Source of the DNA: Bacteroidales bacterium
GTDB taxonomy: Bacteria; Bacteroidota; Bacteroidia; Bacteroidales; UBA932
Length of the DNA stretch: 54,206 bases
Reading direction: 5' to 3'
Assembly (NCBI GenBank): GCA_024401695.1
Contig: JAKSKN010000016.1
Coordinates: forward strand, 1 to 54,206
The notes beneath the pieces are model-generated. The model was not told where the DNA came from, did not search any database, and saw only the letters and a list, made by a program, of their open reading frames with translations. Shown here one piece after another: positions 582 through 4,155 of this stretch (its first letter is position 1; the number at the start of each line of letters is the position of its first letter). The translations under genes and the position numbers were made by a program.

Positions 582-1577
582 ATGGCACTTTTCGAAAGCT
601 ACGAGCGTCGTATTGATCAGATCAATGCAGCTCTCAACAAATACGGTATCAAGGACATCGACGAGGCCAAGGCTATCTGCGAGGCCAAGGGTATCGACCC
701 TTACAAGATGTGTGAGGACACTCAGAAGATCTGCTTCGAGAATGCAAAGTGGGCTTACGTAGTAGGCGCCGCCATCGCTATCAAGAAGGGTGTGAAGAAC
801 GCAGCAGAGGCTGCAGAAGCCATTGGCGAAGGCCTTCAGGCATTCTGCATCCCTGGTTCTGTGGCAGACGACCGCAAGGTCGGCCTCGGCCACGGCAACC
901 TCGCCGCACGTCTTCTCCGCGAGGAGACCGAATGCTTCGCATTCCTCGCCGGTCACGAGTCATACGCTGCCGCTGAAGGCGCCATCAAGATTGCCGAAAT
1001 GGCAAACAAGGTACGCCAGAAGCCTCTCCGCGTCATCCTCAACGGCCTCGGCAAGGATGCAGCCAAGATTATCAGCCGCATCAACGGTTTCACATATGTA
1101 CAGACCCAGTTCGACTACTATACCGGTGAGGTCAAGGTTCTCTCTGAGACCAAGTACTCAGACGGTGTACGCGGCGGCGTTCGCTGCTACGGTTCTGACG
1201 ACGTACGTGAGGGTGTTGCCATTATGTGGAAGGAGAACGTTGATGTGTCCATCACCGGCAACTCAACCAACCCTACCCGCTTCCAGCATCCTGTTGCAGG
1301 TACCTACAAGAAGGAGCGCGTACTCGCAGGCAAGCCTTACTTCTCAGTGGCTTCCGGCGGCGGCACCGGCCGTACCCTCCATCCGGACAACATGGCTGCA
1401 GGTCCGGCATCCTACGGTATGACCGACACCCTCGGCCGCATGCACTCAGACGCCCAGTTCGCAGGTTCTTCATCAGTTCCGGCACACGTCGAGATGATGG
1501 GCTTTATGGGTATGGGCAACAACCCTATGGTCGGCGCCACCGTTGCAGTCGCCGTTGCAGTTGCTCAGGCTATGTAA
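582..1577 (+). CDS. GGGtGRT protein
   Basis: A 331-residue soluble protein with the signature SGGGTGRTLHPDN (GGGTGRT at residues 259-265) that names the GGGtGRT family. It carries several conserved cysteines (for example in YKMCEDTQKICFENAKW near residues 41-57) and ends in a hydrophobic Ala/Val-rich tail. There is no signal peptide. It starts 6 bases after the NifU-like scaffold gene, and this gene pair is common in anaerobes. The context implies a role in Fe-S cluster biogenesis, but no reaction is established for the family. A terminator hairpin follows at 1600-1630. A 49 bp stretch of its 3' end (1453-1501, coding residues about 291-307) is repeated downstream at 1660-1708. Confidence 0.88.
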   Translation: MALFESYERRIDQINAALNKYGIKDIDEAKAICEAKGIDPYKMCEDTQKICFENAKWAYVVGAAIAIKKGVKNAAEAAEAIGEGLQAFCIPGSVADDRKVGLGHGNLAARLLREETECFAFLAGHESYAAAEGAIKIAEMANKVRQKPLRVILNGLGKDAAKIISRINGFTYVQTQFDYYTGEVKVLSETKYSDGVRGGVRCYGSDDVREGVAIMWKENVDVSITGNSTNPTRFQHPVAGTYKKERVLAGKPYFSVASGGGTGRTLHPDNMAAGPASYGMTDTLGRMHSDAQFAGSSSVPAHVEMMGFMGMGNNPMVGATVAVAVAVAQAM

Positions 1578-1734: not shown

Positions 1735-3219
1735 TCAAAATATCCCGTTGGCCTCGCAATAATCGCTGAGCGCTTTCACGTAGTCCCAGGAGGTCAGCCC
1801 CTTGCCGATTGCGACATTAAGATACATCAGATTGTAGTCATAATAGTCAGCCTCGAGAAAACCTTTATACTCAAGAATCTTTTCGAGCGGAGTCAGACCA
1901 TACTTCTCTATGTCCGCCGCCTTCTTGTCGGCATCAAACTCCAACTGGGAATCATACTCGAATATATTGGCAAGCACCTTGAATGACCCGTCGCTCATAG
2001 AAAGCATACCGTTGGACAGATGGTTAAGATGCCCGCTGGTTACGATTGTGTATGCATCGACGCTTTCGTTTGACAGCTTGCAACTCTTCAATTCAAGCCA
2101 GCGGCCATTGTCGGCATCGTAGAAATGATGCCCGATATAGTCTTTGGCATTTCGAGCATTGATAAAGGCGTATTTCCTTTCATCCTTATCGTAGAATCCG
2201 TGTTCCTCGATGACAGTGACCTCCACCTCGTCTTCGAACGTGAGAGTGAAGGCATTCGACGCATTTTCGGTCTTCCAGATAAAGCAGACTGGGGCTGAAG
2301 AGACTTCTCCCGTCTTATGGTCAACGGTACGGATCACATCGCCCATCTCCAATTCCTCAACGACCTTTTGGCTGCCATCCCCCATAGTAATCTTCGTTCC
2401 GGCCGCGACGCAGCCTCCTTCCTCGTCGATTTCTATAGCGGAGAGATCCATCGAATAGATGACGTTCCTCCGGAGGTCCTTGCTGTCCTTTTCCGCCGAA
2501 CCGTGTTCATCTATCGTGTAGCAGGTGACTGCCGCGTCTCCGGTGGTTACGGGAGCTGCAGCGAGATAGAACGTGTTGTCCGAATGGGCGGATGAAAAAA
2601 GTGCGGAGACAGTCTTCCCGTCCAGAGAATCGGTGTCAAGCTTGACGTCGTTACCTTCGAACGTTGCGGTGACTGTGCCTGCGATGGGGTTGGCTGCAGC
2701 AACGTCAACTTTTACCACGTCGGCGGGAGTTGTAATCTTCAACACCGCTGTGGCGTTGCGAAAGATGAGATTGTCCTTGTTGGTCTCATCTTCTTCCGTG
2801 CTCTTTGCGACGCAGATGTTGGCGCTGGCGAAGGTGCCGTCCTGTTCTGTACGGATGGTGAAGGTGATTTCGTCCTCAGGGCAACTTTCCATTGAAGTGG
2901 CAGTCGCGGGATAGACGGCATAGAGGGTACCTTCAAGGGAGGTGGTGAACGTTATCTTGTTATTTGTAATGTCACCGTCCGAAAGGGTCACGTACTGATA
3001 GTTTGTTGCATTGAGGATGAGGATTTCATCACCGCCTTTCCACTCGGGGGTCACGCCGTCAGAATTCAGGGTCGTCTTGGTAGCGTTGTTCTCGAATTCA
3101 GCGGTGATGGTACGGACACCGTTTGCTGATCCGTTGTCCCGAAGGCTCTCCTTCTGGCAGGAAGAGAACGCGAAGAGGGTTGCGATTGCAACTGATGCAA
3201 GTATTATTGTCTTTTTCAT
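1735..3219 (-). CDS. Fimbrillin-like lipoprotein with a Hint (intein/hedgehog-type) domain
   Basis: 494 residues from the start at 3219, chosen because it opens a lipoprotein signal (MKKTIILASV ... FSSC, lipidated Cys21); an upstream in-frame ATG at 3249 only adds polar residues. Residues about 32-255 resemble the fimbrillin-like fold of Bacteroidales surface lipoproteins (ITAEFENNATKTTL, then TPEWKGGDEILI). Residues about 270-410 form a Hint domain: GGCVAAGTKITMGDGS with the nucleophile Cys270, block B ending in VIEEHGFYD (His340), and a closing strand YTIVTSGHLNHLSNGMLS. A further 85-residue tail has no motif I recognise. Hint domains self-cleave through the Cys; a classical HN dipeptide at the C-terminal splice site is not seen, so N-terminal cleavage or ester formation is more likely than splicing. 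Surface location and autoprocessing are inferences. Confidence 0.75.
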   Translation of the reverse strand: MKKTIILASVAIATLFAFSSCQKESLRDNGSANGVRTITAEFENNATKTTLNSDGVTPEWKGGDEILILNATNYQYVTLSDGDITNNKITFTTSLEGTLYAVYPATATSMESCPEDEITFTIRTEQDGTFASANICVAKSTEEDETNKDNLIFRNATAVLKITTPADVVKVDVAAANPIAGTVTATFEGNDVKLDTDSLDGKTVSALFSSAHSDNTFYLAAAPVTTGDAAVTCYTIDEHGSAEKDSKDLRRNVIYSMDLSAIEIDEEGGCVAAGTKITMGDGSQKVVEELEMGDVIRTVDHKTGEVSSAPVCFIWKTENASNAFTLTFEDEVEVTVIEEHGFYDKDERKYAFINARNAKDYIGHHFYDADNGRWLELKSCKLSNESVDAYTIVTSGHLNHLSNGMLSMSDGSFKVLANIFEYDSQLEFDADKKAADIEKYGLTPLEKILEYKGFLEADYYDYNLMYLNVAIGKGLTSWDYVKALSDYCEANGIF

Positions 3220-3245
3220 TGTCTTTCTCTTTTGGGGTTCAACTA

Positions 3246-3371
3246 TCACCAGGTGTCGGTTCCATATTGTTCCGGGCTGTTCGGATTGCTCCCGCAGAGC
3301 ACCCTCTGCACATTGATTTCCACGACCTCCACTTGAGGAGACACGTATGGAGTCTGTTGTTCTTTTACCAT
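3246..3371 (-). CDS. Short 41-residue peptide preceding the Hint lipoprotein
   Basis: A small open frame on the minus strand encodes MVKEQQTPYVSPQVEVVEIN, then VQRVLCGSNPNSPEQYGTDTW, and stops 26 bases before the lipoprotein start. Its pattern (charged start, Y-x-x-P, a V-E-V-V-E-I strand, then an L-C-x-S turn and an acidic or polar end with W) resembles short peptides encoded next to fimbrillin-like genes in Bacteroidales; that resemblance is from memory. It has no signal peptide. A -7 box for the minus strand lies at 3397-3404, so it would be the first gene of the transcript. Function unknown. The main alternative is that it is untranslated leader. Confidence 0.6.
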   Translation of the reverse strand: MVKEQQTPYVSPQVEVVEINVQRVLCGSNPNSPEQYGTDTW

Positions 3372-3534: not shown

Positions 3535-4155
3535 ATGAAGGCAAAATCTTTATTCACTTGCGCACTTGCCCTCCTCATCGGAGCCAGTGCTTTCGGCCAG
3601 GGATTTCACTTTGGCGTAAAGGGTGGTATCTCAGGCAACTGGATGCCCCGGACAAACATCAACATTGATGATACACCCGTGATGAACGTCGGTTTCTATG
3701 GCGGTGTGGCCGGTACCCTGTTCCTTTCGGATATGTACTTCCTCCAGGCAGAGGCCCTCTACACCCGCAAGGGCGTATCCACCAACAGTGAATTGACCGG
3801 AAAATATTCCCGCAACATCTCGTATATCCAGGTACCGGTATTCTTCGGCCTCGCCCTGGGCTCCGACGATGCGCTGCGCTTCATGCTTGGACCGGAGTTC
3901 GGCTTTGCCGTGGGCAACCAGGTGGTAACCAACGCCGCTCTGAATCCTGCCGGAGGAGACAAATACAAGCCGGCCGATTTCAACTTCGGCATCGGCTTCC
4001 AGATATCATACTTCATCACCGACGGCCTTGCAGTGGACCTCAGGTTCGACAAGGGTTTCACAAAGACCCTCAAGCCTGCGGCATCCACGACAAGCGAAGA
4101 CAAGGGTACCAACCTTGGCGTAATGCTCGGCGTCAGTTATATGTTCGGCAACTGA
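3535..4155 (+). CDS. Outer-membrane beta-barrel protein (PorT/OMP_b-brl_2 type)
   Basis: A 206-residue protein with a cleavable signal peptide (MKAKSLFTCALALLIGASAFGQ). Alternating strands with aromatic girdle residues follow (FHFGVKGGISGNW, YFLQAEALYTRKG, YIQVPVFFGLAL) and the end is a typical outer-membrane C-terminal strand (GVMLGVSYMFGN). This matches the small 8-strand porin-family barrel common in Bacteroidota. It has no enzymatic motif. It is the first gene of a run with the double MBL lipoprotein (21 bases downstream) and the GH9 enzyme, preceded by a TATCTTTG -7 box. Its specific function is unknown; a structural or small-solute role in the outer membrane is the default inference. 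Confidence 0.8.
   Translation: MKAKSLFTCALALLIGASAFGQGFHFGVKGGISGNWMPRTNINIDDTPVMNVGFYGGVAGTLFLSDMYFLQAEALYTRKGVSTNSELTGKYSRNISYIQVPVFFGLALGSDDALRFMLGPEFGFAVGNQVVTNAALNPAGGDKYKPADFNFGIGFQISYFITDGLAVDLRFDKGFTKTLKPAASTTSEDKGTNLGVMLGVSYMFGN

Follow-up and report, generated by a model that had tools for sequence, protein, structure and literature searches.

A conserved Hint-plus-tail module at the C-terminus of a putative Bacteroidales surface lipoprotein: a candidate portable autoprocessing cassette

Several described systems contain Hint domains that can be compared with the one reported here. BIL domains are described as having 130-155 residues and mostly cleaved products (PMC9185962, PMC5874633, PMC7664689), and their B-type as a Hint without the His-Asn motif that occurs in variable proteins (PMC9185962). 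For hedgehog proteins the SRR or ARR (the latter term appears in PMC2362128) is described as a helix-loop-helix bringing the cholesterol (PMC9163320, PMC7242414, PMC2362128). In many polymorphic toxins, according to PMC3482391, a Hint precedes the C-terminal toxin.

The window, by which we mean the whole analysed stretch of 54,206 nucleotides from a Bacteroidales bacterium, codes for a predicted lipoprotein whose C-terminal part consists of a Hint domain and a tail (Table 1). As far as sequence can tell, the nearest known kind is the B-type BIL domain: the window Hint comprises ~140 residues, carries Cys1 and the block-B His, likewise has no His-Asn and sits on variable hosts, the last two being the features ascribed to the B-type. 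Unlike in BIL domains, TxxH here has another residue in place of its Thr, a constant tail of 80-90 residues follows, and the host is a lipoprotein. The tail and the lipoprotein host, together with the occurrence on both Bacteroidales and Clostridia-like contigs, appear to be new with respect to the B-type. Literature searches for Hint domains in combination with Bacteroidetes lipoproteins or gut Clostridia, and for fimbrillin in combination with inteins, returned no description of this layout.

Table 1. Features of the locus in the window, and the six further members of the Hint-plus-tail alignment.
Feature	Position	Strand	Remarks
GGGtGRT protein, downstream neighbour	582-1577	+	runs opposite to lipoprotein gene
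Lipoprotein with C-terminal Hint and tail, 494 aa	1735..3219	-	translation from ATG 3219
Conserved tail, residues 408-494, predicted mostly helical	1738..1998	-	tail-only profile and low-confidence model
Hint domain, residues 270-407, begins with Cys270	1999..2412	-	profile, structure-model and DNA similarity evidence
His340 codon, block-B histidine	2200..2202	-	His in 7/7 rows
Cys270 codon, predicted nucleophile of N-S acyl shift	2410..2412	-	Cys in 6/6 module rows
N-terminal anchor/display domain (putative), residues 22-257	2449..3156	-	common to own-genome paralogues with other C-termini
Signal peptide and lipobox, lipidated Cys21 (predicted)	3157..3219	-	sequence ...LFAFSSC-QKE
Gene conversion-like tract, 3' half of small ORF through signal peptide	3160..3302	-	99% identical, 143 nt
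41-aa peptide ORF, MVKEQQTPYVSPQ... = MVKEQQTPYVSPQVEVVEINVQRVLCGSNPNSPEQYGTDTW	3246..3371	-	read from sequence
Outer-membrane beta-barrel, upstream neighbour	3535-4155	+	runs opposite to lipoprotein gene
L038			horse-faeces MAG contig, also G568, same genus as window; 464-aa lipoprotein
L039			horse-faeces MAG contig, ends within module
L083			other genus, same family; lipoprotein of 478-488 aa
L058	5875-6633		252 aa, same genus; signal peptide not evident
L064			IMG/VR contig with serine-recombinase-like gene; module internal to large protein
L084			contig binned in MAG of same family; module at end of protein of at least 1155 aa

The initial annotation had assigned the interval 1735-3371 to a single fimbrillin-like lipoprotein with a Hint domain. 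The Hint lipoprotein is indeed there, but a second, separate ORF for a 41-aa peptide lies in the same interval. For the lipoprotein a GTG at 3249 is a possible alternative in-frame start. An acidic and glycine-containing linker (residues 258-269) stands between the N-terminal domain and the Hint, which ends at about residue 407, and the tail counts 87 residues.

The small ORF is likely the first gene of a two-gene unit with the lipoprotein; 26 bases separate its stop from the lipoprotein ATG, and the peptide matched no Pfam family at E<=0.05. A small YxxP-type ORF is found directly upstream of the lipoprotein gene in L038 too, and by one strict pattern such an ORF was counted upstream in 14 of the 36 loci L002-L037. 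The loci which have it are L006, L007, L008, L015, L018, L019, L021-L023, L031, L034-L038 and the window. In the genus these peptides have ~40-60 residues, often with a Cys-Ser stretch, and are encoded directly 5' of such surface lipoprotein genes. YxxP is a motif of lasso-peptide leaders, and TACCTTTG (3404-3397, 5' of the small ORF) is a putative Bacteroides-type -7 element.

The proposed lipobox is present in the translated protein (FSSC, with the Cys at position 21), and this Cys is invariant in all 13 aligned N-terminal-domain rows, so that the sequence has the lipobox Cys after a signal peptide expected of a Bacteroidota surface lipoprotein. The QKE following it we assume to be a surface export signal. 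The label fimbrillin-like is not supported for the window's N-terminal domain, for which neither Pfam nor NCBIfam gave a match at E<=0.1. Only two of the 13 aligned domains match the Mfa1 fimbria model, and these weakly (best E 0.0012), one matches the FimD tip adhesin (E 0.041), and the domain profile found no match among solved structures (best E 0.24). That the lipoprotein is a fimbrillin is not proven by these comparisons. Among 27 proteins with such an N-terminus, 14 of which are incomplete because the retrieved stretch ends within them, the other C-termini recognised by Pfam were GLUG (5), beta-helix (4), Fib_succ_major (FISUMP; 2) and Big_2 (1). The N-terminal domain therefore appears to be an anchor with swappable payloads.

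Profile search and structure prediction agree on a Hint fold at approximately 270-407, with Cys270 and His340 as had been proposed. The Pfam model PF01079 matches the whole protein with E 3.2e-5 and 24.1 bits, which is under Pfam's own cut-off of 29.7 bits. The BIL2 structure 6tmm is matched by the single sequence with E 1.1e-4 and by the seven-row family profile with E 2.2e-10. A Foldseek search with the predicted model led to 55 PDB matches at E<=0.001 (best E 1.1e-8), 2lwy and 6tmm being among the fold matches, and in the alignments Cys270 (residue 12 of the model) falls on residue 1 of inteins and on residue 258 of hedgehog 1at0. The predicted fold is the all-beta Hint horseshoe and not another one, and both the N-terminal nucleophile and the block-B His of the superfamily are found in the sequence. 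Taken together, profiles and model place the Hint assignment far beyond chance. Two further Hint models, PF14623 and PF13403, found nothing in the window's own genome at E<=0.001.

To the alignment of the Hint-plus-tail module (A6) belong seven members, the window and the six loci of Table 1. The nucleophile Cys1 is present in all six rows that reach its column (the seventh, L039, ends too early), and is preceded by a small residue (G/S/T) in the same six; the block-B His occurs in all seven. Both residues are retained down to ~30% identity and on different hosts, so that the loss in homologues which would have spoken against a Hint did not occur. The missing His-Asn end was correctly noted: the last Hint strand of the window ends ...NGMLSMSDG, and none of the seven members has a His-Asn at this place. 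The Thr of TxxH is likewise absent from all seven rows, which have I, V or A instead. Between the window and L038 dN/dS amounts to 0.105 in the Hint and 0.065 in the tail, and to 0.088 over the module (dS ~1); the module is under purifying selection.

The initial annotation named no described system of this layout. It is not unique to this protein: two other lipoproteins (L038 and L083) share it, and the module occurs on quite different proteins as well. L038 is 85% identical to the window in the module and 32% in the N-terminal domain, and the first 119 residues of the L083 N-terminal domain match the window's anchor-domain profile (37 bits). The 30-residue N-terminus of L058 by eye resembles a small YxxP peptide and is joined directly to Cys1; judged by its sequence, this would be a Hint that cuts off a short peptide. 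The host protein of L064 by eye seems secreted and of beta-helix type, while Pfam reports the Hint and unrelated weak families, no beta-helix; further protein sequence follows the tail. L084 is probably Clostridia-like contamination, since a neighbouring gene reaches the camelysin/Peptidase_M73 cut-off, if barely (22.6 vs 22.5 bits). The Clostridia-like origin of L064 and L084 is judged by eye and by this one neighbouring gene.

The tail appears to belong to the Hint module and not to be a separate payload. A tail-only profile built from three members (window, L038, L039) recovers the other four at E 6e-10 to 2e-5, with E 1.4 for the best non-member among 2672 frames from 86 loci, which include the tail-less Hint proteins L040, L041, L043, L059, L063 and L085. 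By the dN/dS values, constraint is stronger on the tail than on the Hint part. It matched no Pfam family, and the only PDB match reaching into it with the seven-row profile is at chance level (E 0.62). Its AlphaFold model is helical with low confidence (pLDDT 59.5); a Foldseek search with it gave a single match (E 9), which at this confidence is no basis for claiming a new fold.

The DNA similarity between the window and L038 extends from 2412 to 1735 (82%), i.e. from the Cys270 codon on: identity is 38% in the 45 nt before this codon and 80% in the 45 nt from it. The sharpness of this boundary is partly expected, because the N-terminal domains of the two proteins differ. That of the window is nearest to an own-genome paralogue (58-60% amino acid identity). 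The partner of the gene conversion-like tract in Table 1 is the locus of this same paralogue (G000:C1:34318-34460), the two surface-protein loci being otherwise different; a genome search with the 143-nt tract gave only these two full-length matches and two short partial ones. This points to a recent, gene conversion-like recombination spanning the beginning of the lipoprotein gene. Where the small ORF begins, the sequence resembles L038 again (91% over 65 nt). Tract and L038-like flanks together indicate a mosaic locus: its anchor part was replaced, and its Hint-tail cassette was retained. The occurrence of the Hint-plus-tail unit on quite different proteins suggests that the cassette is portable and cleaves or attaches itself.

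The module is rare in the genome samples, which overlap, so that their counts are not additive. The A1 query found 10 matches in the order sample (393 genomes), with the tail in the window only, and three in the genus sample (400 genomes, the window's own included), all with the tail. In the phylum sample (395 genomes, A2 query) there were four matches, again with the tail in the window only, and in the family sample (398 genomes, A3 query) four genomes matched, three with the tail, one of these a probable contamination. In the genus of G1218 one of three genomes had a match, and a whole-protein scan of genome contigs gave two loci. The rarity in sampled relatives together with the Clostridia-like members suggests lateral transfer. 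The window's own genome additionally showed, in the family sample, two short matches to its own phage-like inteins; its 203-kb contig C33, which may be a large phage, carries an RNA polymerase beta'-type ORF (L043:4209-7604) with two apparent inteins, the first having a LAGLIDADG domain.

Viral contigs were scanned with a few peptide and DNA patterns, and the full module was found only in IMGVR_UViG_3300001598_003165, which is L064 (also listed as L072 and L119). The DNA-pattern scan gave seven contigs, on which, besides L072, the module matched weakly (best E 0.020, L075). L075 was rejected as a chance match: the frame concerned, of 1230 aa, looks coiled-coil-like by eye and shows no Hint, and the tail profile gives it E 1.1. 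One viral scan led to 32 loci, mostly intein-like N-terminal matches. On L087-L119 the tail-only profiles were significant for L119 alone (next best E 0.12), and placements of the full profile on tail positions in some of these frames were unsupported by them. A 52.8-kb viral contig from the same sample as L064 encodes, near an anaerobic ribonucleotide reductase gene, a 431-aa protein (L087:4359-5654) in which a related Hint is followed by no more than the beginning of the tail. Among the plasmid and phage tblastn matches listed, no record had 80% coverage; they fall on the Hint part, largely in genes annotated as a toxin-type Hint or as a RecA/UvsX or helicase with intein. Some lack an annotation, and one of the searches gave no match.

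Other secreted proteins with a C-terminal Hint resemble that of the window, but unlike it end with the Hint, and the tail profile found nothing in them at E<1. The protein at L059:6896-8002 (minus strand), a secreted Bacteroidales protein, has an F5/8-type NADase_transloc domain (E 1.4e-56) before the Hint; L041:6834-8051 and L085:4720-5949 look similar by eye. L040:7163-7687 by eye is a stand-alone secreted Hint of 174 aa with little beyond its signal peptide.

We regard it as somewhat probable that Hint and constant tail together make up an autoprocessing cassette which is portable and in the window forms the end of a surface lipoprotein. This reading draws on the predicted Hint fold, the conservation of Cys, His and tail, the absence of His-Asn, the purifying selection and the shuffling of the module; that the protein is exported and undergoes acyl shift and cleavage, and what becomes of its fragments, we infer. 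The precursor would be exported, lipidated on Cys21 and probably displayed at the cell surface. As in the Hint family, the domain would then carry out an N-S acyl shift at 269/270, in which the bond preceding Cys270 passes to the side chain of this Cys, giving a thioester which, as the His-Asn and C-extein machinery is absent, would be resolved by water or another nucleophile. Residues 21-269, with the lipid anchor and the N-terminal domain, would thereby be separated from residues 270-494, which hold Hint and tail. The tail would be a constant part of the cassette that aids the reaction or the choice of partner, not a variable toxin. Against the cassette speak the Pfam Hint scores below cut-off for the single sequence, the failure of PF14623 and PF13403 to match in the own genome, the low confidence of the tail model and the rarity, with three matches in 400 same-genus genomes. 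The missing TxxH Thr is the main result against a strong activity, as the T326A exchange in Drosophila hedgehog is reported to reduce activity greatly (PMC9163320); its loss could mean a weak activity.

That the Hint is catalytically weak or dead, a stable domain with a structural or binding role at the cell surface, would fit this loss, the lack of His-Asn in all seven members and the low scores with curated profiles; we consider it quite unlikely in view of the retention of Cys1 and block-B His on such different hosts. Unlikely, too, is a coupling of the hedgehog kind, with the tail as an adduct-recognition region which brings a lipid, glycan or amine, and the anchored lipoprotein covalently joined at residue 269. 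The tail stands where hedgehog has its SRR/ARR, in the same order after the Hint, is homologous in all seven members and is the more constrained part. This is an analogy of layout, since no sequence link was found; the tail is co-conserved and helical in its low-confidence model, with no detectable homology to the hedgehog SRR. Unlike the Hog domain the module is bacterial, and of the hedgehog TxxH pair (Thr326, His329) it has the His and lacks the Thr. The column that by eye seems to correspond to hedgehog Asp303, the general base, has Lys in six of seven rows and Asp in one. The tail's lack of Pfam and of better than chance PDB matches adds to these objections, and the thioester might simply be hydrolysed.

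The pretoxin HINT of polymorphic toxins (PF07591) shares with the window protein a C-terminal Hint on an exported protein, and many plasmid tblastn matches listed for the Hint part are annotated as 'polymorphic toxin-type HINT'. A Hint that frees the 87-aa tail as a toxin is nevertheless very improbable and was rejected: unlike in those systems the tail is constant and not variable across members, neither the window nor L038 has an immunity candidate downstream on the same strand, the next genes running the opposite way, and in L064 the protein continues past the tail. There is practically no chance of a true splicing intein. The Hint fold and the internal module of L064 would be compatible with one, but the C-terminal His-Asn is missing throughout, and six of the seven members have no C-extein and hence no C-extein nucleophile, because the protein ends with the tail. 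For the window protein splicing, already called unlikely in the initial annotation, is refuted by the missing C-extein.

If active, the cassette would bring autoprocessing to surface proteins of gut bacteria, with a constant tail that is directly testable for nucleophile choice, a property thought special to hedgehog. Since its first residue is the catalytic Cys and different hosts carry it, it might also serve as a natural means of producing C-terminal thioesters in exported proteins. Rather doubtful, in our estimation, is a bacterial counterpart of hedgehog processing, in which a swappable cassette of Hint and recognition tail cuts itself off exported proteins and joins the new C-terminus of the anchored part to a selected nucleophile at the surface; if this hedgehog-like reading were true, different surface proteins that took up the cassette would all be attached covalently in one and the same way.
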